Origin: Fidelibacterota bacterium
GTDB taxonomy: Bacteria > Fidelibacterota > UBA8477
NCBI GenBank assembly: GCA_021734045.1
Contig: JAIPJR010000030.1
Coordinates: 1-31,016, forward strand
DNA: 31,016 nucleotides
Direction of reading: 5' to 3'
Program-made: the position numbers and the translations under genes
Shown: in pieces, positions 3,018 through 17,363 of the stretch
Position numbering within the stretch: the first letter of the stretch is position 1
Layout: each line of letters begins with the position of its first letter
The notes under the pieces: generated by a model
The model's input: the letters and a program-made list of their open reading frames with translations, nothing else
What the model was told of the DNA's origin: nothing
Databases searched by the model: none

Positions 3018-4496
3018 CTACTCGCTTACAGCCGCCTGCTCATTTTCATCCGGCCAGAGCAGTGAGACCACCACCACAGCGATTAATGCAATCACAAAGG
3101 CACTCAGACGCGCCGTGATCCATTCACCAAACACGTCCACTACCGTGAAAAGTGTGCCCGTTACCATGCCGGCGATAATGCCCTTCCGGCTGATTTTCCG
3201 CCACCAAAGGCTCAGGACCAAAGCCGGACCAAATGAGGCACCCAATCCGCCCCAGGCATAAGAGACCAGTTCAAAAACCAGTTCGCTGGATTGCCAGGCC
3301 AGGTAAAAAGCGATTAACCCGATACAAATAGCCAGGTAGCGTCCGTAGCGTAACAATTGCTCACTTGATGCTTCTCGCTTGATATACCGCTTGGTCACAT
3401 CCTGAGTGAGCACAGTCGTGGTCACCAGCAATTGGCTGTCGGCGGTACTCATCATCGCCGCGATGGCGCCTGAAATCATTATTCCTGCGATCCACGGATT
3501 CAACAGATGTGCAGCCATCTCCGGCATGATTTTCTCAGAATCCACTACCCCGGCGGCCATGAGTTCCTTTAAATCTGCCAGAGACAGAATCTCCTGTCCC
3601 TGCAACTGCATTTGACCGGAGAATAATAATTGCCCGCCGATAATGCCGATGAAGAGAGAACCGAAAAAGGCTGGAATGGCCCATGAAATAGCAATGCGCC
3701 GACCGATTTTGATATTTTCCGGCTTATCAATAGCCATGTAGCGCGTGATGAGATGAGGCTGACCCATGTAGCCCAATCCCCAGCTCAATCCGCCAACCAC
3801 ACCGGCCACAGCGCCCCAGCCGATTTGCCCGCCGTATAGATTGGATGCGTCTAATGAAATGCCGTGACCAGTGAACTCACTGTATTCAATAAGACCCACA
3901 ATGGGCAATATCACCAGCGTGCCAATCATAATGATACCTTGGACCAAATCCGTCCAGGCCACCGCGAAAAAACCACCCATGATGGTGTAAAAAACGATAA
4001 TCAGTGCTCCTAAAATCATGCCCTGCATCTGGGTCATCCCAAAGGTCACATTGAGGACTTTCCCGGCTCCGGAAAATTGTGCCGCCACATAAAAGGTGAA
4101 AAAGAAGGTGATGATGATGGAGGCCAGGATTCGCATCAATCCAGACGGGTCTCCAAACCGGGTGGAGAAATACTCGGGCAAAGTGAGCACACTGTAGTCA
4201 GAAGTGGCCTGTCTTAACCGCTGAGCGACCACATACCAGGAAAAAATTATCCCAAGGATGCAGCCAACCGCCGTCCACAATTCAAACAATCCTGCCACCA
4301 AACCCACGCCCGGCAGTCCCAGAATAATCCAGGCGGATTCTCCGGAGGCTCGTTCTGAGAAAGCTATCACCCAGGGGCCCAGTTTGTGTCCGGCCAGGGC
4401 GAAATCATCCAAATTCCGCGTAATACGAACCGTGTAGAAGCCCACAAATAAAATCATTACCAGGTAGAGCGTAAAACCAATCATCACAGGTGTCAT
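3018..4496 (-). CDS. Sodium:solute symporter, PutP-like (SSS family)
   Basis: A 492-residue inner-membrane protein with about 12-13 hydrophobic segments, the length of the PutP/PanF/SglT sodium:solute symporter family. The family signature region is clear: ...FSERASGESAWIILGLPG (46-63) aligns with the ASDMSGW-LLMGLPG stretch of E. coli PutP, followed by the LTLPEYFSTRFGD segment and GGFFAVAWTDLVQGIIM. The sodium-site aspartate of PutP is replaced here (SGESAW instead of SDMSGW), so proline is likely but not assured as substrate. A delta-1-pyrroline-5-carboxylate dehydrogenase gene occurs 16 kb away, consistent with proline use. Monocistronic; it diverges from mobA across 127 bases that must hold both promoters. 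Confidence 0.85.
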   Translation of the reverse strand: MTPVMIGFTLYLVMILFVGFYTVRITRNLDDFALAGHKLGPWVIAFSERASGESAWIILGLPGVGLVAGLFELWTAVGCILGIIFSWYVVAQRLRQATSDYSVLTLPEYFSTRFGDPSGLMRILASIIITFFFTFYVAAQFSGAGKVLNVTFGMTQMQGMILGALIIVFYTIMGGFFAVAWTDLVQGIIMIGTLVILPIVGLIEYSEFTGHGISLDASNLYGGQIGWGAVAGVVGGLSWGLGYMGQPHLITRYMAIDKPENIKIGRRIAISWAIPAFFGSLFIGIIGGQLLFSGQMQLQGQEILSLADLKELMAAGVVDSEKIMPEMAAHLLNPWIAGIMISGAIAAMMSTADSQLLVTTTVLTQDVTKRYIKREASSEQLLRYGRYLAICIGLIAFYLAWQSSELVFELVSYAWGGLGASFGPALVLSLWWRKISRKGIIAGMVTGTLFTVVDVFGEWITARLSAFVIALIAVVVVSLLWPDENEQAAVSE

Positions 4497-4623: not shown

Positions 4624-5226
4624 ATGCCTTCAGACCAACCCCCATATACAGACCAATTGGCCAGCGCCGTCATTCTGGCCGGCGGGACCAGCTCGCGCAT
4701 GGGGGAGAACAAGGCGATGTTGCTCGTGAAAGGCATTCCACTGATACAACACATTCATTCTCAGCTTACAGCGCTGTTTGAATCAATCCTGATCAGCGGA
4801 CCGGATGACAAGCACTATGATTTCCTGCCTTGCGAGGTCATTCCTGATGAAATGCCGGATCAGGGGCCACTCATGGCGATTTACTCAGTTCTAAATGCCC
4901 TGCAGAAACCCATTTTTGTCGTGGCGACGGATATTCCGGAAATCCCCAGATCTGTTGTGGAAAATATACTGAATCTCGCCCGGACGAATCCCGGTGCTCA
5001 GGCGGTGGTACCGGTTACAACAGTCGGTGATTACGAACCACTATTCGCCCTCTACAGACCGGCGTTGTTATCCACCATTCAGGACGCATTGGCAGCAGGG
5101 AATCGCCATATTTACAAATTATTTTCCCAGGTTCCCCTGCAGCGCTATCAGTTGCAGCCGCATGAATCCCTGCTGAACTTGAATCATCCCAATGATTACG
5201 AGCGGTATGTCAAATCACACCGTTAA
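4624..5226 (+). CDS. mobA: Molybdenum cofactor guanylyltransferase MobA
   Basis: MobA attaches GMP to Mo-molybdopterin, the step that yields the (bis-)MGD cofactor of DMSO-reductase-family enzymes. The 200-residue product has the nucleotidyltransferase signature AVILAGGTSSRMGENKA (15-31), the PDQGPLMAIYSVL segment and the FVVATDIPEI metal/nucleotide-binding loop. Length is usual. An ATG start at 4624 is adopted; upstream there is no strong Shine-Dalgarno site. It converges with the EcfT-THEP1 gene with only 4 bases between stop codons. The obvious local client is the molybdopterin oxidoreductase of the sulfur operon at 10.4-12.6 kb; this link is an inference. Confidence 0.92.
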   Translation: MPSDQPPYTDQLASAVILAGGTSSRMGENKAMLLVKGIPLIQHIHSQLTALFESILISGPDDKHYDFLPCEVIPDEMPDQGPLMAIYSVLNALQKPIFVVATDIPEIPRSVVENILNLARTNPGAQAVVPVTTVGDYEPLFALYRPALLSTIQDALAAGNRHIYKLFSQVPLQRYQLQPHESLLNLNHPNDYERYVKSHR

Positions 5227-5230
5227 AAGT

Positions 5231-6355
5231 TTATACATCCACCCGGATAATAACACGGGGCCGGTCTTTCAGGTCTGGCAGGTAATCGGTAAGAAACGAA
5301 TCCATTTTCCCCACTAGTGACGGCCTGACCGTAAAAAGAACCTGATTTGGTCCTGTACCAGAGGCAAAAATCTCTGCCAAAGCGGGCGTGTACCCTTTGC
5401 CCTGCATCTCAAGTGGCCCAATTTCGTCCAAAATGAACCATTCCTGCCCGGTTGCAGCCTGTGACAACTGCTTACCTGCCCACTCGAACGCATCCGGGTA
5501 GAAGCTGAATTTACCCACCGTATTCGCTTCTGGAAGCGCTTCAGTTGTGTTCAATGCATGCTGTTCACCGGTGGCAATCCGCTGATTCATCTGTCGCCAC
5601 AGATTCTCACCACGGTTCTGTCGCAGGGATAATAACCCATCTACGGGAATACTGTTATCCAGCAGTACCGTAATCAGCTGCGTGAGCCAGGTGGTTTTCC
5701 CGGATCCCTGCTCACCGGTAATGATGATGAGTGACGGGACCGCACGAACTTGCTCAATTAATACAGCCGGGTCGGTGGATCCTGCCATCTGGGTTGGTGA
5801 TTGGGATAGATCGTCTGCCAGACGCACGAAATCGGCCAGAATATGGGTAAACAAATCAATGATCTGTCCCAAAATCCCTGCTCGCCTGCGATTCGTTTTG
5901 AATTCACCGTACCTGGCCTGGAGAATGCTTTTCGCTTTGGGAACCGTCTCTTTGGAAACCCCATAAATCCGGTCAAACTGGGGAATGCCCAGTCGCCGGA
6001 AAAATGCGGATAACTGGGACTGATGCAATTCCCAGGTGAGTACCTGGAAGAGTAAAAATACCAGAATTCCCCGAATCGCCATGAGGCTGGTTTGATGGAA
6101 TAACGGCTCATTGTAGGGGATTATCCAAAAACGGGCATCCGGCTCGCGACCAAAAATGGGAATCAGAACCACCAGCAGGACAATCGTAATCCAAAATTTC
6201 CAGTTTTTCAGCGGACGCAAGGTCTTTGGATAGGTTACAAACACGAGCCCAAAGCTGAGTAGGGGAATTAACCAGGGGTGGTAATTCAGTGTAAGAATGG
6301 CCAGGAAAAGGGCGAATGTCACTCTGGCGCGCCGGCTTTTGAGCCATTTAAACAT
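5231..6355 (-). CDS. EcfT-like membrane domain fused to THEP1-type NTPase
   Basis: A 374-residue two-part protein. Residues about 10-115 form several transmembrane helices, followed by a basic cytoplasmic stretch (FFRRLGIP ... KAKSILQARYGEF ... NRRRAGIL) resembling the coupling helices of EcfT/CbiQ energy-coupling-factor proteins. The C-terminal part (about 205-374) is a P-loop NTPase of the THEP1 (DUF265) family: Walker A GEQGSGKTT, GLLSLRQNR, and Walker B with the THEP1 signature FILDEIGPLEM. I chose the ATG at 6355, which overlaps the upstream membrane-protein gene by 8 bases; a longer reading from 6385 would overlap by 38. The upstream partner looks like an ECF S component, so the pair may be a small transporter in which the NTPase stands in for the usual A components. 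That is an inference; substrate unknown. Confidence 0.75.
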   Translation of the reverse strand: MFKWLKSRRARVTFALFLAILTLNYHPWLIPLLSFGLVFVTYPKTLRPLKNWKFWITIVLLVVLIPIFGREPDARFWIIPYNEPLFHQTSLMAIRGILVFLLFQVLTWELHQSQLSAFFRRLGIPQFDRIYGVSKETVPKAKSILQARYGEFKTNRRRAGILGQIIDLFTHILADFVRLADDLSQSPTQMAGSTDPAVLIEQVRAVPSLIIITGEQGSGKTTWLTQLITVLLDNSIPVDGLLSLRQNRGENLWRQMNQRIATGEQHALNTTEALPEANTVGKFSFYPDAFEWAGKQLSQAATGQEWFILDEIGPLEMQGKGYTPALAEIFASGTGPNQVLFTVRPSLVGKMDSFLTDYLPDLKDRPRVIIRVDV

Positions 6356-6947
6356 GATCACGCTGTTCCAGATGTATTTTGACACGCCGGTTCAGTCGCC
6401 AGGCCAGTTCAGCAGCCAAAAGACCAATGATGAGATGAATGGCAACATAGCCACCCACCAGCCACCAGCCCAGTGCATAGCCGAACCGTTCCGAAATACC
6501 TGCGACCATGTCCAGGAGCACCGGAACAAAACTCAGCCCAAACAGAATCGTTTTCGTTACCAGATTCTGCAAAATGGGGTAAATCCCCACAATCAACCCG
6601 GCAAGATAGAAGGCAAACCGGCCTTGGGTAAAAAGCGAAAGAATCACTTCCACGATAATACCCTCCATGAGAATGCCTGCAAACGGCCCCAGCTTGACCG
6701 TGGCGAAACTCATGATTTTAATAAATGCTGCAATAAGTGCCATCATGGCTGTGCTGCCGCGTACCGGATTATACACACGAGCAATAAGGATGATGATCAG
6801 TCCAATCCCGGAGAGGATGGATCCGGACAGCGGTACGCTTAACAGATGCAAAACATTGCCCAGCGTGGCTTCCGAAAGTCCCCACAAGGTGCCAAATACA
6901 CCGATGAAAATAATGCTGCGCTGGTTGAAGGGTTGTTGTGTCTTCAT
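6348..6947 (-). CDS. Membrane protein, ECF S-component-like
   Basis: A 199-residue, very hydrophobic protein with about six transmembrane helices and short Gly/Ala-rich loops (LWGLSEATLGNVLH near the N-terminus, KLGPFAGILMEGIIVEV, YLAGLIVGIYPILQNLV). Size, helix count and texture fit substrate-binding S components of energy-coupling-factor vitamin/metal importers, but I see no residues that name a substrate. It overlaps the downstream EcfT-THEP1 gene by 8 bases, indicating translational coupling and a joint function. First gene of this two-gene operon. Confidence 0.6.
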   Translation of the reverse strand: MKTQQPFNQRSIIFIGVFGTLWGLSEATLGNVLHLLSVPLSGSILSGIGLIIILIARVYNPVRGSTAMMALIAAFIKIMSFATVKLGPFAGILMEGIIVEVILSLFTQGRFAFYLAGLIVGIYPILQNLVTKTILFGLSFVPVLLDMVAGISERFGYALGWWLVGGYVAIHLIIGLLAAELAWRLNRRVKIHLEQRDHV

Positions 6948-7150: not shown

Positions 7151-7774
7151 CTAACACCCGCCCTGGGGTGCTTTTTTCGCTTTCCGCGGGACGATTTTTG
7201 GTTTCTTAATTTCCGTGTCTGTGGTGGCGGTTTTGGTGGTAGCCGCACCGCCACCCAGTGCCTGACTGGCTCCTTTACGAAACTCATATTTGGCAATTTC
7301 GTCATTGGGGGAGGTGACCGGCGGTTCCTCAGGATTCATAATCACCTCAGTCCAGTAATTCAAGCCCCCCATGAGCACACCCAAGTTCTGGTAGCCCAAT
7401 TGGCGCAGAATCATCCAGGCTTCATTTGAGTCGGTGGAGCCGTTGGAATAGAGGACATTAAACTTCACCCCCTGATCCCATATAACCTGGTAATCGGGAT
7501 TGAGAATGTCGGCCAGCGGGATATTGATGGCATTGGGAAGATGGTACTTCTCAAAATCGTCCGGGGAGCGCACATCAACCAGTTGAATACTGGGATCCTT
7601 ATTGATGAGCCATTCAGCCAGATAATCGGGATGAATCATGTGCGTACCCGTGTTCACCGCACGCAGGAGTTGATCAGCCGTCAATTTGTAAGGCTTGGTG
7701 GTATTCTCCGGCACCATGGCGATAACCAGTCCCAAAAGCAGCATGATTCCCACCGTAATGTTTCGTGCACGCAT
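7151..7774 (-). CDS. Membrane-anchored rhodanese-like protein, catalytic Cys lost, C-terminal GGC
   Basis: A 207-residue protein. An N-terminal hydrophobic segment (residues 6-20) acts as signal or anchor, so the rest should be periplasmic. Residues about 45-145 form a rhodanese fold: LVDVRSPDDFEKYHLPNAIN (65-84) is the conserved structural motif and GVLMGGLNYW (132-141) closes the domain. The active-site loop reads LYSNGSTD (108-115), with Ser110 where rhodaneses have the sulfur-carrying Cys. A Lys/Thr/Ala/Pro-rich flexible tail (168-207) ends in QGGC; Cys207 is the only cysteine in the protein. Start at 7774 follows GGGAGGAG and lies 1 base after the upstream stop; a longer reading from 7816 is less likely. 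Last gene of the operon. The tail recalls the GGCGG swinging arm of SoxY, suggesting a sulfur-carrier role; that is inference. Confidence 0.85.
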   Translation of the reverse strand: MRARNITVGIMLLLGLVIAMVPENTTKPYKLTADQLLRAVNTGTHMIHPDYLAEWLINKDPSIQLVDVRSPDDFEKYHLPNAINIPLADILNPDYQVIWDQGVKFNVLYSNGSTDSNEAWMILRQLGYQNLGVLMGGLNYWTEVIMNPEEPPVTSPNDEIAKYEFRKGASQALGGGAATTKTATTDTEIKKPKIVPRKAKKAPQGGC

Positions 7775-7775
7775 A

Positions 7776-8366
7776 TTAATACTCCTCCCGGGGAAATTTT
7801 TTCTCAGCCCATTCACCGACCCAGAACATGATGGCGGCGGCTATGATGACCAGAAATGCGAAAAAACCACCGGAGATGCCCAGAACCTGATTCAACTTCG
7901 GAGCACCCAAATCCATGGCGTAATACAGTTTTTCCCAGAGCGGGAAACCTTCGCCAAAGATGAACACGCCCAGAAATATCCCACCGATGAAAATCATGGC
8001 ATCAATCTTTCCAATCGCAGCAGCACAAATGCTGGTACCGGGACAGAATCCTCCGGCGATAAATCCCACTCCCATGATTACACCACCAATGATGGCGGAC
8101 CAGAGGTAGGTGGGATTCACATAAACCAAATTCAGATTAATCCAGCCAAACAGGCTGAAAAACAGAAGACCCAGCATGGCGGTAATGGCACCGGTGAAGA
8201 ATACCTTTAATACGACTGTATCATACCCATAGAACATACCCGCCAATTTGCGGCTGCTGGAAAAACCGGCCTGCTCAAGGACAAACCCGAAGCCAATGCC
8301 AATAACAAATGCGATGAGGAAATTCCAGTTTGCACCAATCACCTCATTGGGCACTAATGGTCCCAT
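7776..8366 (-). CDS. YeeE/YedE-family sulfur transporter half (C-terminal type)
   Basis: A 196-residue inner-membrane protein of the YeeE/YedE (DUF395, sulphur transport) family. Five or so hydrophobic helices; key family motifs are LEQAGFSSSRKLAG (30-43) and GGFCPGTSICAAAIG (105-119) with Cys108 and Cys114. In the thiosulfate importer TsuA (YeeE), conserved cysteines line the substrate path; by analogy this protein with its neighbour could move thiosulfate or another reduced sulfur species across the membrane. It lies 9 bases after the other half and 1 base before the rhodanese-like gene, so the three are co-translated. Confidence 0.88.
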   Translation of the reverse strand: MGPLVPNEVIGANWNFLIAFVIGIGFGFVLEQAGFSSSRKLAGMFYGYDTVVLKVFFTGAITAMLGLLFFSLFGWINLNLVYVNPTYLWSAIIGGVIMGVGFIAGGFCPGTSICAAAIGKIDAMIFIGGIFLGVFIFGEGFPLWEKLYYAMDLGAPKLNQVLGISGGFFAFLVIIAAAIMFWVGEWAEKKFPREEY

Positions 8367-8375
8367 ATAACCCCC

Positions 8376-8888
8376 TTATCCAATCCAATTTTTTCTGAAA
8401 AAATAAGCACCCGCAAAGGCGGTTCCGAAAATGGCGGCCATGGTCACGAAACCGCCCACACTCAGCACCGCCATCCCTGTGAGCGCCGAACCACTGGTAC
8501 AACCGCGCCCCAACTGAGAGCCAAATCCAAACAACACGCCACCAATCAGTGCAAAAACCAGTCGGCGCTTTGATGAAATACCCGGGAAATGCTCGATTTT
8601 GAGTTTTAACCGCCGGGAGAGCGCCCCCGATAAAAACCCGCCCACAATGACGCCCAGAATTTCATACACCAGCCAGTTGTTTAGCGGGTTAGCATCATCG
8701 GCAACATAGTGACCAAAGTAGGCATTCTCCACCGTATGAGTCGGAGCAACCTTATCCATTCCATAAACAAGTGCGCTTTTTACCGCACCACTGGCGCCCA
8801 GACCACGGCCTGAAAAAAAGAACGCCATGAGCAGTACTATCCCCAGCAGAAATCCTGCAAGATAGGGATTCATGTACTTGTTGTTCAT
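8376..8888 (-). CDS. YeeE/YedE-family sulfur transporter half (N-terminal type)
   Basis: A 170-residue membrane protein of the same YeeE/YedE family as its downstream neighbour. It contains the two characteristic elements FSGRGLGASGAVKSA (25-39) and QLGRGCTSGSALTGMAV (125-141), with Cys130 in the GRGCTSG loop. Together the two half-size proteins equal one full-length TsuA-like transporter, and split pairs like this are common in the family. Direction and substrate (thiosulfate, sulfide, polysulfide) cannot be told from sequence. It follows the NrfD gene in the operon. Confidence 0.88.
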   Translation of the reverse strand: MNNKYMNPYLAGFLLGIVLLMAFFFSGRGLGASGAVKSALVYGMDKVAPTHTVENAYFGHYVADDANPLNNWLVYEILGVIVGGFLSGALSRRLKLKIEHFPGISSKRRLVFALIGGVLFGFGSQLGRGCTSGSALTGMAVLSVGGFVTMAAIFGTAFAGAYFFRKNWIG

Positions 8889-8924: not shown

Positions 8925-9866
8925 CTAATACAACCATCGGCTGGCTTGGCCCGCCTCCACCACGATGAAGCGAAGCATGAGACTTCCGCCAATGACCATC
9001 AACGCCGGAACGAAGGTGGGGACACCCCGTTTGCGCAGCTCTAAAATTTCCAGTAACGCGGGTACAGCCAGACCAATTCCAACCACCCATACCCAGAAAG
9101 GAACCGTGAACTCACCACCCAAAAACATTTCCGCTGCCTGAATGTGCACCTGCGTGCTGGCCAGAAATCCCATGAATAGATGAATGATGAAAAACAATTC
9201 CACCGCAATCAGGACCAGATCGATTTTTGTAAACATGCTGCGTTCAGCGTGATCCCGGGCCAATAGGGCAATAGCGGCCGCCGCTGTAGAGAGACCGGAG
9301 GTGAGGAAGAGGGGGCCCATGATGGCACTATTCCAAAAGGGTCGTGCGTTAAACGCGGAAAGCAGAATGCCGGTGTACATTCCCAGAATCACAGCCAGAA
9401 CAATCAGCGCCCATGCCATGGGTTTTTGGTAGTCCCGTATCATGTGAATCGCCTGTTTCAGCCAGTCATACCTTAGATCCAATTTTGGAAAAAGGTCTTC
9501 AATCCAACTGGCCGCCCAGACAATGGACAGGGGCGTCACAAGCAGGAGTGTCCAGGCGCCCCAGGACATGGGTGATTCCCAGCGGATGTTGGTGTACAAT
9601 TGCCAGAAGTAGCGTTTGTGGGAAAGGTCCAGAAACAATGCACCCAGACCCAGCGCCAACAGCACCGGTACAGCCAATGGTAGTACTTTTACCGCCATAC
9701 TGTACCGGTCCTCCTTATTCTGCAGGGTAAATAGAGCTGAGAAAAAGAGAATTCCTGCGGCAAAGCCCCCGAGGAATAGATACAACGGTATTTCCCAACC
9801 CCAAATGTGTAAAATGGGATCCACTTCCGGTGTCATGCGACCACTGGTAATGATTTCTTCTACCAT
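8925..9866 (-). CDS. nrfD: NrfD/PsrC-type quinone-linked membrane subunit
   Basis: A 313-residue membrane protein with eight predicted helices (about 29-49, 63-83, 101-121, 149-170, 180-200, 217-237, 247-267, 280-300), the size of NrfD/PsrC. This family anchors molybdo-iron-sulfur complexes and exchanges electrons with menaquinone. Characteristic stretches are WGWEIPLYLFLGGFAAGILFF near the N-terminus, DLSHKRYFWQ and WNSAIMGPLFLTSGL. The start at 9866 has a GAGGTG site and is 8 bases from the ferredoxin subunit stop. With the two upstream genes it forms a Psr/Phs-like CISM complex; the direction of electron flow is not determined. Confidence 0.92.
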   Translation of the reverse strand: MVEEIITSGRMTPEVDPILHIWGWEIPLYLFLGGFAAGILFFSALFTLQNKEDRYSMAVKVLPLAVPVLLALGLGALFLDLSHKRYFWQLYTNIRWESPMSWGAWTLLLVTPLSIVWAASWIEDLFPKLDLRYDWLKQAIHMIRDYQKPMAWALIVLAVILGMYTGILLSAFNARPFWNSAIMGPLFLTSGLSTAAAAIALLARDHAERSMFTKIDLVLIAVELFFIIHLFMGFLASTQVHIQAAEMFLGGEFTVPFWVWVVGIGLAVPALLEILELRKRGVPTFVPALMVIGGSLMLRFIVVEAGQASRWLY

Positions 9867-9874
9867 CAGTCACC

Positions 9875-10408
9875 TCATAGTAAGTAATAAATGTTAGGTT
9901 TGGTGCCCGCTTCCGGAATCAGTGTCTTCCACTTCCGCCGCGCCACCAATTTGGCAATGTCGCTATTGGGGTCATCCATATCGCCGAAGATCATGGCGTG
10001 GGTGGGACACACATCCACACAGGCGGGATTTTGACCTTTTTCTACCCGGTGAATACAGAATGTGCATTTATCCACATAGCCTTCGGGATGGACAAAGCGG
10101 GCATCATAAGGGCAGGAAGCGATACAGGCTTTACACCCGATGCATTCAGTTTCCTCCACCAGCACAATGCCGCCCTTGCCCACATGACTGGCCTGAGTGG
10201 GACAAGCCCGCACGCAAGGTGCGTCTGAACAATGATTGCAGCGTTCTGAGCGGATTTCCAGCTGTAATTCCGGATAGGTGCCGCTCATGGATTCCACAAT
10301 CCAGTCACGACAATATCCAATGGGAATATTGTTCTCCGTCTGACACGCCACCACACAATCGCTGCATCCCACGCAGCGTTTGGTATCAATTGCCATTGCG
10401 TATCTCAT
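9875..10408 (-). CDS. 4Fe-4S ferredoxin electron-transfer subunit (PsrB/PhsB/DmsB type)
   Basis: A 177-residue protein with sixteen cysteines in four clusters: 12, 15, 18, 22; 57, 60, 65, 69; 89, 92, 95, 99; and 115, 118, 130, 134. This is the four [4Fe-4S] arrangement of PsrB/DmsB/NrfC subunits, which pass electrons between the molybdenum subunit and the quinone subunit. There is no signal peptide of its own; such subunits ride out with the Tat-exported catalytic subunit. The ATG overlaps the catalytic-subunit stop as ATGA, so the two are translationally coupled. Met5 is an alternative start. Confidence 0.95.
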   Translation of the reverse strand: MRYAMAIDTKRCVGCSDCVVACQTENNIPIGYCRDWIVESMSGTYPELQLEIRSERCNHCSDAPCVRACPTQASHVGKGGIVLVEETECIGCKACIASCPYDARFVHPEGYVDKCTFCIHRVEKGQNPACVDVCPTHAMIFGDMDDPNSDIAKLVARRKWKTLIPEAGTKPNIYYLL

Positions 10409-12648
10409 GCTTCCACCTCTTCTGCCGGTTCAAATCGAAAGGTGACGAAGTTACCCCGCATGCCGGTGCCGCCCATTTCCGGATCCACATGCACCCGGGT
10501 GATGAGTTCCGAGTCGCTGGCGCCCCGATTGTATGAGCGGGTCAGTTTCTTATTGGTATGGCCGAAACCGTGAACCATATAAACCGAATCAAAGCGAATG
10601 CGCTCCGTGACACGTACTTTGATGGAAGACGAACTCACCACGCCATCCTGATTTTCAAGCCAGATCGCCTGACCATTCTTCAGACCCCATTCTTTGGCTA
10701 CTTTTGGGTTTACCCAAACTGTATTCTCATCCATCAGGTCATTGAGATTGGGATTGTTGGTGGTGCGGCTGAAGGTATGCATGGGTGCCCGACCGTAGAT
10801 CAGTCGATAAAAGCCGTAGGGTGGTTCCTCATGGGCTTTATAGCTGGGCAGGGGGTTATAACCTTCTAAAGCGAACTGGGTGGCGTAAAGCTCGATTTTG
10901 CCTGTATTGGTCCAGAATTCGTAATCAGGAAGACCCTCCAGCGGATAGAGATCATTGTACGGACGGGGAAACTTCTTCACACCGATCTTTTCCATTTCTG
11001 CCAGCGATGATCCCATCTGTTTCAGCTGCCAGTCCAGCTCTTCTGCCTGGGTTTTGAAAGGGAAATAATCTTTCAGATCAAGTTTAATGCCCAGTTCCCG
11101 CGCCATTTCCCAGGCTGACTTGGTGTTGTATTGCTTTTCGGCGGCCGGTACCCGCAGGGCGATGCTGCCTTCCCGGTGGGCGCTGACCCGCAAGTCATCA
11201 TAACGCTCCAGGTAGGTACATTCCGGGAGAATCACATCAGCGTAGCCGGTGATTTCCATGGGCATTGTATCAATGACAACCAACATCTCAAGCGCCTGGA
11301 TCGCCTCCAGCGTGTTTTTCTGGTTCGGTAGGGTGTGAATCAGATTGGTGCCGTTCACGATCCAACCCTTGATGGCGCAATCCCGCTCCACATTAGGGAC
11401 CGTGGCGTCACACAATCCGGAGGCTAAAGCCAGACCGGCTAATTTGAATTTATCCGGGAATGCCTCACGCCAGTTGCGTTTGACTTCAGGATAGGGTGGA
11501 TGCTTCACTTTGGGCACGGTGGGTTTGGCGGGATTGTAAAATCCCCCGCGGCGACCCCAACTGCCCAGCAGGGCATTGAGAATGGCCACTGCCCGCAGCC
11601 GTTGGGTGTCATCACCATACCAGGTCACGTGACGCCCCGGATGAATAATCACTGCCGGTGAGGCATTGGCCATTTCCCGGGCTGTCTCCCGGATCACATG
11701 CGGTTTAATCGTGGTAATGCCATAAGCCCATTCGGGTGTGAAATCCTTCACATGCGCTTTCAGCTCATCAAAGCCATAGGCATATTTTTCAACATATGTT
11801 TTATCGTAGCGGTCTTCGTAAATCAATACATGGATCCAGGCTAACAGCAGCGCCATATCGGTGGCCGGTTTGATGGGCAGCCAGTACTTGGATTTACTGG
11901 CCGCGGTGGAAAAACGCGGGTCCACCGTGATAACAGTACCGCCTTTGTCAACCAACTCACTGAATTCCTGAACCTGCCCATTGTGCATATTCTCGCCGAT
12001 ATGACTGCCAATCAGCACCAGACAACGGCTGTCCCGGATGTCGGTGCGCTCCGGTGAACCCACACCTTCACCAAATGTGCCGATAAATCCAACCTCACGC
12101 GGTCCACGACATTGAGCATAGGAAGGTGCGGCCACATTATCAGAGCCGTACGCTTTCAGAAGATGACCCAGATAGGACCCACCTGAACCGTGAGTAAAAA
12201 GCGCCATGCACTCGGGACCCCATTTCTCCTTAATCATCGCCATCTTCTCAGCGATGTAGGTGAATGCCTCGTCCCATGACGCTTCCCGGAAAACCTGTTT
12301 CCCACGCTCTTCGGTTCGGATTAATGGCGTCTTCAGACGATCTTCATCATAGTACATTCCCACCCCGCCCGTGCCACGGGGACAGAAGCGACCATTGCAA
12401 TGGGGATCCTCTTCGTTACCGGTAATTTTCCAGATCTTACCATCTTCATTGTGATGCACCCAGCCAGCACATTTCCAAAAGCACACCTCGCAGTAGGTGG
12501 GCGTTCGTTTGGAATACATCCCGGGCAGGGTGTCTCTGGTTAGGATTTCACCTTTGGCCCAGTCCAGGATAGGATTGGCTACAGTCAATCCCGCGGTTCC
12601 CAGTCCGGCCAGTCGGATAAATTCCCGGCGATTCAAATGTTTACTCAT
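10405..12648 (-). CDS. Tat-exported molybdopterin oxidoreductase, PsrA/PhsA-like
   Basis: A 747-residue catalytic subunit of the DMSO-reductase superfamily. It has a twin-arginine signal (NRREFIRLAG near the N-terminus), a [4Fe-4S] motif with cysteines at 53, 56, 60 and 89, and a candidate molybdenum-ligand Cys180 in YAQCRGPRE. Later segments (VIIHPGRHVTWYGDDTQR, INGTNL-like NGTNLIHTLPNQ, MHTFSRTTNNPNL) are typical of PsrA/PhsA/TtrA-like enzymes. Length fits polysulfide or thiosulfate reductases and is shorter than SoeA or TtrA. Likely reduces polysulfide, sulfur or thiosulfate in the periplasm with menaquinol, or runs in reverse; exact substrate is not determined. I prefer the start at 12648, which overlaps the MerR stop as ATGA, over the one at 12660. 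Confidence 0.92.
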   Translation of the reverse strand: MSKHLNRREFIRLAGLGTAGLTVANPILDWAKGEILTRDTLPGMYSKRTPTYCEVCFWKCAGWVHHNEDGKIWKITGNEEDPHCNGRFCPRGTGGVGMYYDEDRLKTPLIRTEERGKQVFREASWDEAFTYIAEKMAMIKEKWGPECMALFTHGSGGSYLGHLLKAYGSDNVAAPSYAQCRGPREVGFIGTFGEGVGSPERTDIRDSRCLVLIGSHIGENMHNGQVQEFSELVDKGGTVITVDPRFSTAASKSKYWLPIKPATDMALLLAWIHVLIYEDRYDKTYVEKYAYGFDELKAHVKDFTPEWAYGITTIKPHVIRETAREMANASPAVIIHPGRHVTWYGDDTQRLRAVAILNALLGSWGRRGGFYNPAKPTVPKVKHPPYPEVKRNWREAFPDKFKLAGLALASGLCDATVPNVERDCAIKGWIVNGTNLIHTLPNQKNTLEAIQALEMLVVIDTMPMEITGYADVILPECTYLERYDDLRVSAHREGSIALRVPAAEKQYNTKSAWEMARELGIKLDLKDYFPFKTQAEELDWQLKQMGSSLAEMEKIGVKKFPRPYNDLYPLEGLPDYEFWTNTGKIELYATQFALEGYNPLPSYKAHEEPPYGFYRLIYGRAPMHTFSRTTNNPNLNDLMDENTVWVNPKVAKEWGLKNGQAIWLENQDGVVSSSSIKVRVTERIRFDSVYMVHGFGHTNKKLTRSYNRGASDSELITRVHVDPEMGGTGMRGNFVTFRFEPAEEVEA

Positions 12649-13109
12649 ACCCGTTTCCAATGCCTTTTCAGATATAATTTCATATTACCGCAAAGCGTCA
12701 ATTCTGTATAAACCGGGCACTCACGACACTCTTCTTCGGAGCAAACCTGTGGTTTGTTTTCGATTAACCAGCACGGCGTGGTTGTTTCATGATACGCAGG
12801 ACAAGTCATCCTGTCTTCCTGAGGGCAATTTTTGATATCCCAGCAAGGCGCTAATGACATGATGGCCTTGATACCGGCAATGTTGAGCCCCTGCTCTTCC
12901 AGCATGACCCGAAGGCAGCGCAATCGATGGAGATCATTACGGGAATAAAGCCGGCGTGAGCTGGCCGTGCGGTGGGGAAAAACGAGGCCCTCCATCTCGT
13001 ACATTCTCAATGTATGGACCGAAACTCCGATCATGTCCGCTGCCACGCCAATTGAGAATACGGGGCGGTTTGTGTCGGTCATATTTTTGGTTATTTCGGC
13101 TATGCTCAC
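12645..13109 (-). CDS. MerR-family regulator with cysteine-rich CW-type C-terminal domain
   Basis: A 154-residue transcription factor. Residues about 16-85 form a MerR winged helix: VFSIGVAADMIGVSVHTLRMYEMEGL then RRLYSRNDLHRLRC, closest in feel to HspR/MerR regulators. The C-terminal half holds two related cysteine modules, CWDIKNC-x7-CPAY and CWLIENKPQVC-x4-C-x2-CPVY, which look able to bind Zn or an Fe-S cluster. The protein is the first gene of the sulfur operon and overlaps the catalytic subunit as ATGA, so it probably autoregulates the operon in response to a redox or sulfur signal (inference). The GTG at 13109 has AGGA 8 bases upstream; the ATG at 13082 is an alternative that fits usual MerR length. 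Confidence 0.85.
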   Translation of the reverse strand: MSIAEITKNMTDTNRPVFSIGVAADMIGVSVHTLRMYEMEGLVFPHRTASSRRLYSRNDLHRLRCLRVMLEEQGLNIAGIKAIMSLAPCWDIKNCPQEDRMTCPAYHETTTPCWLIENKPQVCSEEECRECPVYTELTLCGNMKLYLKRHWKRV

Positions 13110-15809: not shown

Positions 15810-17363
15810 ATGGATAAAGATTTACAGTCGATACAGGAAGTGAGAGAGCTGGTTACTCAGGCGAAGAAAGCCCAGCAGGAATTTCAGAATTTCACACAAG
15901 CGCAAGTGGATCAGGTTGCCAGAGCCATGGCTGATGCGGGATTCCGTGCTGCTGAATCGCTGGCCAAAGCAGCAGTAGATGATACGGGATTTGGACATTA
16001 TGATGATAAGATTATCAAGAATCAATTCGCGACCCGGGATCTCTGGAACGCCATAAAAGACGAAAAAACTGTGGGTGTGATTCACCGGGATCACCGGAAA
16101 CGCACGATGCAGATTGCCGAACCTATGGGCATCGTGGCCGCCATTATCCCCACCACTAATCCTACTTCAACCGTATTGAATAACCTCATTATCTCAGTAA
16201 AAGCCGGGAACGGGGTCGTTGCTTCGCCCCATCCGTCTGCTGCAAAATGTACCCTGGCTGCAGTGGAAGTGTTGGTGCGGGCGGCTGAAAAAGCCGGTGC
16301 TCCTGAAGGCTTAATCGGGTGTATTCGAACGCCCAGTATTGCCGGAGCACAACACCTCATGACCCATGATGATGTGAATGTCATAATCGCCACCGGTGGA
16401 CGGGGTATTGTGAAAGCCGCCTATTCCTCCGGGAAACCGGCTTATGGTGTGGGACCGGGGAATGTACCGGCCATCATCGAACGATCCGCTGATGTATCCA
16501 AGGCAGTCAAAGACATTATCGCCGGAAAAACATTCGACAACGGGGTCATCTGTTCATCAGAGCAGGCTATGATTTACGAACGTTCCATTGAGCGTCAGGT
16601 CATGTTGGCGTTGAAAAATTTACCCGTCCATATCGTGAATGATTCGGAGAAGGAGAAGCTCCGTGCATGGATGTTCACCCACGAAGGCAAGTTGAATGGA
16701 AAGGTTGTGGGCTTGTACCCCTGGCAAATCGGCGAAAATAGTGGATTCAAAGTTGACCCGAAAGTCAGGGCTCTGCTTGTTCCCATTGAGTCAGTAGGTC
16801 CGGATGAACCCTTCTCAAAAGAAAAATTATCACCGGTTCTGGCGATGCTGCCGGCAAACACCATTAAGCAGGCATTTCAGTTCGGAATGACCATGGTGAC
16901 AATGGCCGGAATCGGGCACACGGCGGCACTGCATACACGAGACGATGATGTGGTCATGGAATTTGCGCATAAATTCCCAGTCGGAAGATTGGTCGTCAAT
17001 TCACCCTCTGTACATGGATCGGTGGGATACACCACTGAATTGCCGCCGGCTCTGACGCTTGGCTCGGGAACCCGATCTGGCTCCATTACCATGGAAAATA
17101 TCTCTGCAAAACATTTGGTGAATGTGAAATCCCTGGCCTATGAGACCAAACCTTTGGATAAAACCGGACCCAGGGACAGTGCCATTGATCGGCCTTTCCA
17201 GAGTCGCAAAGGCAGCAGCACGGCGACCGAAGAGTTGCCACCACCAAAACCAAAGTCCACGATTATTTCCAATCCCACACCGGCAACCGAAAAAATCCTT
17301 TATGGAAGCTCCGGCTTAACCGATGAAGAGGTGGAAAAAATCATCCGCGACCTCAACTCCTAA
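15810..17363 (+). CDS. CoA-acylating aldehyde dehydrogenase (EutE/PduP/SauS-like) with C-terminal tail
   Basis: A 517-residue member of the acylating aldehyde dehydrogenases, which convert an aldehyde, CoA and NAD(P) to acyl-CoA. The catalytic Cys248 lies in TFDNGVICSSEQAM (241-254), the EutE/AdhE form of the motif; GGRGIVKAAYSSGKPAYGVG and GPGNVPAIIE complete the nucleotide and active-site loops. Acetaldehyde, propionaldehyde or sulfoacetaldehyde are possible substrates. After the catalytic core there is a Pro/Ser/Thr-rich linker (about 455-500) and a short amphipathic helix (GLTDEEVEKIIRDLNS) that resembles a microcompartment encapsulation peptide. No shell-protein genes occur nearby. Start supported by AAGGG 8 bases upstream. 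Confidence 0.88.
   Translation: MDKDLQSIQEVRELVTQAKKAQQEFQNFTQAQVDQVARAMADAGFRAAESLAKAAVDDTGFGHYDDKIIKNQFATRDLWNAIKDEKTVGVIHRDHRKRTMQIAEPMGIVAAIIPTTNPTSTVLNNLIISVKAGNGVVASPHPSAAKCTLAAVEVLVRAAEKAGAPEGLIGCIRTPSIAGAQHLMTHDDVNVIIATGGRGIVKAAYSSGKPAYGVGPGNVPAIIERSADVSKAVKDIIAGKTFDNGVICSSEQAMIYERSIERQVMLALKNLPVHIVNDSEKEKLRAWMFTHEGKLNGKVVGLYPWQIGENSGFKVDPKVRALLVPIESVGPDEPFSKEKLSPVLAMLPANTIKQAFQFGMTMVTMAGIGHTAALHTRDDDVVMEFAHKFPVGRLVVNSPSVHGSVGYTTELPPALTLGSGTRSGSITMENISAKHLVNVKSLAYETKPLDKTGPRDSAIDRPFQSRKGSSTATEELPPPKPKSTIISNPTPATEKILYGSSGLTDEEVEKIIRDLNS

Follow-up and report, generated by a model that had tools for sequence, protein, structure and literature searches.

A rhodanese-like protein without loop cysteine carries a conserved terminal Gly-Gly-Cys arm in a psr-yeeE operon: a candidate periplasmic sulfur carrier

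Sud of Wolinella is a periplasmic rhodanese that feeds polysulfide reductase. Other proteins carry sulfur on a cysteine near the C-terminus: in SoxY it is bound to the Cys of a C-terminal GGCGG, and a Gly-neighboured C-terminal Cys has also been noted in LbpA (PMC6067878), while in DsrC the penultimate Cys binds sulfur (PMC3397948). It has been proposed, though only as a proposal, that SoxY hands its sulfur to the pore cysteines of the YeeE-like SoxT (PMC11582611). YeeE proteins of half size, PmpA and PmpB, are known as well; PmpB corresponds to the N-terminal part of TsuA, which bears Cys91, and PmpA to its C-terminal half, which bears Cys293, and transport by TsuA requires the positions that match the invariant Cys of each YeeE half described below (PMC11582611). 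Rhodanese genes have been reported near PmpAB or YedE1E2 half-transporters (PMC10812762). A polysulfide reductase cluster of Marinimicrobia has been described in a paper that nowhere mentions a rhodanese (PMC5688066). For most anaerobes, the route that sulfane sulfur takes in the periplasm between reductases of polysulfide/thiosulfate and importers of the YeeE type is a gap in knowledge, on which the locus analyzed here bears.

The window, i.e. the whole stretch of DNA that was analyzed, comprises 31,016 nucleotides of a Fidelibacterota bacterium. On its (-) strand the genes for a MerR regulator, PsrA/PhsA, PsrB, PsrC/NrfD and two PF04143 halves follow one another, with a rhodanese gene last. 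The features, each with the evidence for it, are:

7151..7774, (-): membrane-anchored rhodanese-like protein, 207 aa, with Ser110 loop and terminal GGC (translation, Pfam, homologues, AlphaFold)
7154..7255, (-): flexible basic arm of this protein, residues about 174-207, ending KKAPQGGC (low pLDDT; GGC end conserved in the 80-locus set)
7439..7450, (-): rhodanese loop codons Tyr109-Ser110-Asn111-Gly112, position of the catalytic Cys (alignments)
7776..8366, (-): YeeE/YedE half-transporter YeeE2, PmpB-like, N-terminal half (Pfam; Cys108 conservation)
8376..8888, (-): YeeE/YedE half-transporter YeeE1, PmpA-like, C-terminal half (Pfam; 6LEO alignment; Cys130)
8925..9866, (-): PsrC/NrfD membrane subunit (Pfam/NCBIfam)
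9875..10408, (-): PsrB-type iron-sulfur subunit (Pfam/NCBIfam)
10405..12660, (-): PsrA/PhsA-type molybdopterin catalytic subunit (Pfam/NCBIfam; Cys184 conservation)
12645..13109, (-): MerR-family regulator, cysteine-rich towards its C-terminus (Pfam/NCBIfam)

The rhodanese gene starts with an ATG at 7774, a start that is backed by the homologues; a longer version starting with GTG at 7816 is possible. PF00581 (residues 51-143, E 1.4e-15) was the sole Pfam match of the protein, without any SoxY domain, and neither Pfam nor NCBIfam gave a match to the DsrC/TusE fold. In the AlphaFold model an N-terminal membrane helix (residues 3-20) precedes a rhodanese fold, where pLDDT is about 70-90 for most residues from 50 to 135, and the tail is modelled as disordered (pLDDT <50 across most of 174-207). 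Foldseek comparison of the model with the PDB returned rhodaneses. By profile match and fold the protein belongs to the rhodanese-domain superfamily. In the profile alignment its fysng stands opposite FYCGG of the solved rhodanese 6mxv, and the position taken by the catalytic Cys in solved rhodaneses is Ser110 here; the preliminary description had placed Ser110 at this site, which the alignment and the structure matches confirm. Lacking the catalytic loop Cys, the protein falls outside the active sulfurtransferases (rhodanese/Sud/PspE). Its sole cysteine is the final residue, Cys207, at the end of a Lys/Thr/Ala/Pro-rich tail that is translated as ...KAKKAPQGGC*. Positive residues precede the membrane helix, which suggests that the C-terminus lies outside, and we infer a periplasmic location for it.

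A Gly-flanked Cys ending a flexible C-terminal arm is a SoxY-like trait, and the periplasmic setting, predicted for the window protein, adds to the likeness with SoxY/SoxYZ. Unlike SoxY, however, the window protein has a rhodanese fold, is membrane-anchored, has no SoxZ and is encoded with Psr/Phs instead of Sox proteins. With DsrC/TusE it shares the flexible arm and an ultimate or penultimate Cys, and homologues ending in GGCS, GGCE or GGCG have their Cys in the penultimate place as well, whereas DsrC is cytoplasmic, has another fold and has DsrAB as partner. By analogy, the likeness to SoxY and DsrC would concern the working mode and not family membership. Sud, whose structure 1QXN was found when profiles were compared with solved structures, is likewise a rhodanese fold associated with PsrABC, but it works via its loop Cys, whereas the only Cys of the window protein sits on the tail.

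The partner genes agree with a molybdenum sulfur reductase and a transporter pair, as had been supposed at the outset: a PsrABC-type enzyme and two PF04143 halves are encoded in the operon. The catalytic subunit has the molybdopterin domains, the [4Fe-4S] Cys and the Cys Mo ligand of PhsA/PsrA proteins. Cys184, presumably the Mo ligand, was invariant in 67/67 sequences. At 462 bits the subunit did not reach the PhsA equivalog cut-off of 694, and the substrate is thus not fixed by this comparison. YeeE1 and YeeE2 belong to PmpAB-type YeeE/YedE proteins, each being a PF04143 half that has a single conserved Cys (Cys130 of YeeE1 invariant in 76/76 sequences, Cys108 of YeeE2 in 78/78). The YeeE1 segment with Cys130 aligns to TsuA 6LEO; the alignment to this structure covered YeeE1 only, and the assignment of YeeE2 follows from its motif and from the part of PF04143 that it matches, the N-terminal half. 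In having two such halves with one invariant Cys each, the locus resembles PmpAB / YedE1E2, but for the rhodaneses linked to those transporters no C-terminal Cys arm is described in the accessible part of the source (PMC10812762). With the Marinimicrobia polysulfide reductase cluster the locus shares the psrABC enzyme and the phylum (PMC5688066).

A scan of 84,980 species yielded 80 loci from Neomarinimicrobiota and Bacteroidota; a few records are named otherwise, e.g. FCB group or Chlorobiota, but the sample represents essentially two phyla and includes numerous metagenome bins. The window gene and 19 orthologues of its order (56-86% identity) all combine a YSNG loop with a GGC end (20/20). 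Across the loci, 78/80 proteins end in GGC (73), GGCS (3) or GSC (2), and exactly one Cys is present in 76/80. The early remark on a sole cysteine placed last after two glycines is borne out by the translation, and the terminal Cys is a trait of the whole family. One of the two exceptions (L110) is a gene cut by a contig end. The other (L074, which is L356 in the second search below) was rejected as a true tail loss: a frameshift, probably an assembly error, lies just before the tail, and the other frame reads ...KKAVQGGCS (3900-4200). In a diverse set of 32 sequences G205 and C207 are invariant and the linker is mostly variable. The last three codons vary synonymously across the 80 loci (GGA/GGC/GGT/GGG, TGT/TGC); thus conservation acts on the peptide, and a chance occurrence or a misread stop codon is ruled out. 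The order psrABC-yeeE1-yeeE2-rhd is well kept, with PsrA found in 71/80 and YeeE2 in 79/80 loci, many contigs being short.

A second search started from YeeE2, which answers the bias arising when hits are picked by rhodanese similarity. YeeE2 was present in 37/245 Neomarinimicrobiota genomes and in 61/149 sampled genomes of one Bacteroidota order (that of Mariniphaga). Counting the Bacteroidota order set and two further Neomarinimicrobiota loci, L380 and L381, a linked or fused rhodanese was present at 66 loci. L380 has an N-masked stretch and is unreadable; among the 65 readable proteins, 63 have a Cys within the final three residues. L356 is again the frameshift mentioned above, and the sole real absence is a Bacteroidota fusion (L365) with the end GGVKR. 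The catalytic position, as read from pairwise alignments, is occupied by Ser (47), Ala (11), Gly (3) or Thr (2), with one gap, and a loop Cys was found in 0/63 YeeE-linked homologues. The preliminary description had expected loss of the loop Cys and the terminal Cys to occur together and to follow the psr-yeeE operon; the loop residues (Ser/Ala/Gly/Thr) and the synteny in 71-79 of 80 loci agree with this. Operon homologues that keep the loop Cys and have variable, Cys-less tails were sought as counter-examples and not found.

The tail is not confined to such proteins. It ends 31/34 single-domain rhodaneses encoded in tandem downstream in psr-yeeE operons, some of these having no Cys end, and 6/7 double-rhodanese proteins of the same operons, some of which keep the Cys of their last domain. 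Natural YeeE2-rhodanese fusions with a GGC end were found as well. A lipoprotein rhodanese family with the tail is encoded beside PF11783 multihaem cytochromes or beside a separate psr cluster, and usually retains the loop Cys (CKKxxR); in one member (L284) the loop Cys is replaced by Asp and the tail GGC is kept. Since rhodaneses with an active loop are also tailed, the tail is not a simple replacement of the loop Cys. The original picture of a dead rhodanese with an arm therefore holds within the YeeE-linked set, where the loop residue is never Cys, but not for the arm as such, which is also found on Cys-active rhodaneses. Likewise, its link to Psr/YeeE is upheld by operon synteny but is not exclusive, as tailed proteins are encoded next to clusters for multihaem cytochrome/cytochrome b, too. 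In a tree of 91 rhodanese domains, tailed proteins fall into three separate lineages and the tail label changes six times; the alignment is short with many forks unresolved, and at least two changes are required by branches with strong support.

Several individual loci may be listed here. The lipoprotein rhodaneses of L178 (1414-1950, (-)), L179 (1417-1983, (-)) and L281-L283 have an intact CKKxxR loop and a GGC end, with an acidic linker (EEEDSGGC) in L178 and L179. YeeE-rhodanese fusions of three Neomarinimicrobiota genomes (L034, L035, L036) end in ...KMKVKKA[ST]GGG, i.e. the arm is kept without the terminal Cys; these GGG fusions and L365 are the only orthologous Cys-less tails. L120 encodes a 196-residue protein (16078-16668) ending ...KTQGGCS that has no Pfam match and is probably a very degenerate rhodanese.

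Two genomes, those of Marinifilum flexuosum and of the window, were scanned whole for GGN-GGN-TGY-stop, a pattern that leaves ends like GGCS outside. M. flexuosum has two GGC-ended genes, both rhodaneses. In the window's genome the window gene is the sole credible one; C112:8056 and C59:47565 (contig edge) were left out, and in three other open frames Met is absent or only a short one is available. From these two genomes the GGC tail looks rhodanese-specific.

Two or three adjacent rhodanese-type genes with near-identical tails were observed in L120 (13127-16668) and in L372-L376, and in L373 the tail KKKKQAAAGGCE occurs three times. In 42 pairs of tails from the same operon, identity over the ten residues that precede the final Cys is 67%, compared with 37% for shuffled partners (largest value of 2000 shuffles, 46%). 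Identity of the rhodanese domains is only 26% within operons vs. 39% when first rhodaneses from different loci are compared. That tails are alike within an operon though the domains differ suggests a shared docking partner. Different codons encode 147/323 identical residues of the paired tails, which makes recent gene conversion unlikely; older gene conversion may have contributed to the match. From the sequences, selection by a shared partner appears the likeliest explanation, ahead of recent copying.

Architecture, conservation, linkage by operon and fusion, loss of the loop Cys, restriction of the tail to rhodaneses and matching operon tails are observed features, and on them we base the proposal, which we hold to be moderately probable, that the window protein carries sulfur in the periplasm on its arm, in the manner of SoxY or DsrC but built on a rhodanese scaffold. 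The rhodanese fold without catalytic Cys would serve as a membrane-tethered docking body, from which the disordered arm of about 34 residues would present the Gly-Gly-Cys thiol. This thiol would take up sulfane sulfur as persulfide or polysulfide and shuttle it between two sites, the catalytic center of the Psr/Phs molybdoenzyme and the YeeE1/YeeE2 pore with its lining of cysteines; in other clusters a multihaem cytochrome would replace Psr/Phs as sulfur partner. With two glycines in front of it, the thiol would be able to enter narrow clefts, a parallel to SoxY and LbpA. Sulfur could flow from PsrA or the cytochrome via the arm to the YeeE pore, or in reverse. Periplasmic location, sulfur loading of Cys207, transfer partners and direction of flow are thus predicted parts of the proposal. 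At the level of sequence comparison, the proposal is favored by the terminal Cys in 78/80 loci of two phyla while the linker varies, by the 63/65 result of the transporter-first search, by the psrABC-yeeE1-yeeE2-rhd order and the YeeE2-rhodanese fusions ending in GGC, by the invariant single Cys of each YeeE half, by tailed rhodaneses beside PF11783 multihaem cytochromes and by the likeness of tails within operons despite divergent domains; precedents for a sulfur-binding C-terminal Cys are SoxY, LbpA and DsrC. The GGG fusions, the GGVKR end of L365, the second rhodaneses without Cys end and the tailed rhodaneses with an active loop speak against it.

Other roles for the terminal thiol were weighed. 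It is unlikely, but the best of these alternatives, that the arm exchanges disulfides or electrons with cysteines of PsrA, a cytochrome or YeeE and carries no sulfur. Thioredoxin reductase has a C-terminal arm that offers a parallel, and a lone thiol exposed on a flexible arm, with redox enzymes as neighbors, would suit such a role; however, a single thiol cannot form an internal disulfide, 76/80 proteins have no other Cys, and both fold and operon are of the sulfur-handling kind. Rather improbable is an assembly function, in which mixed disulfides of the terminal Cys would join rhodaneses, transporter and reductase in one complex. Near-identical tails on two or three proteins of one operon would suit it, but many operons have one tailed protein only, and the terminal Gly-Gly and its near-invariance favor insertion into a cleft. 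A sorting, anchoring or modification signal, comparable to other C-terminal tags, is very improbable: the tail stands at the very end of several gene products, but the tailed membrane proteins and apparent lipoproteins are already anchored, and the GGC-stop scan of two whole genomes, with rhodaneses as the only credible hits, does not support a general signal. QbsE-type sulfur carriers have a Gly-Gly end that is activated to a thiocarboxylate, and trimming of the Cys would expose such an end here, as the GG before the Cys and the GGG of some fusions recall; this is hardly credible, however, as GSC, EGC and GLC ends keep the Cys and lose the GG, the ubiquitin-like fold is absent and the predicted periplasmic location is without ATP. 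Delivery or buffering of copper, mercury or iron-sulfur precursors by the arm, in parallel to mercuric reductase, which shuttles metal by Cys arms, is equally remote, given one thiol per arm and a conserved operon without metal-handling genes.

The carrier proposal has a broader form, which we regard as tentative and a little short of evenly balanced: the GGC arm may be a transferable sulfur-handling tag, so that the arm and not the loop works in a previously unrecognized periplasmic sulfur relay in Bacteroidota and Neomarinimicrobiota. If so, several different rhodaneses of one operon, dead and active, would use the same arm at a docking site common to them all. A rhodanese that lost the loop Cys and retained the tail Cys is an unusual case in which the catalytic group has apparently left the fold for a flexible arm. 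No published account of a rhodanese GGC motif was found in the literature covered, which was part of the whole, and the family of tailed rhodaneses seems to be widespread and has apparently gone undescribed. Its hosts are uncultured marine bacteria and many Bacteroidota, including the cultured genera Marinifilum, Labilibaculum, Ancylomarina and Mariniphaga. The conserved arm, fused to the transporter in some genomes, offers a single residue, Cys207, for probing sulfur transfer.

Next to the psr-yeeE operon, overlapping genes encode an NTPase_1 (PF03266) protein and a multi-helix membrane protein (5231-6385 and 6348-6947, both (-)), the latter without a good Pfam match. Also close to it lies a gene for a MobA-like nucleotidyltransferase (4624-5226, (+)), which fits the idea that the molybdenum cofactor of PsrA is supplied locally. 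The MerR regulator (12645-13109, (-)) has an HspR-like N-terminus, and its Cys-rich C-terminal part weakly matches a two-CW domain model. The regulator possibly senses sulfur, redox state or metal for the operon, and a relative is found near the operon in 18/80 loci. The MobA-like and MerR genes fit a regulated, molybdenum-dependent setting.
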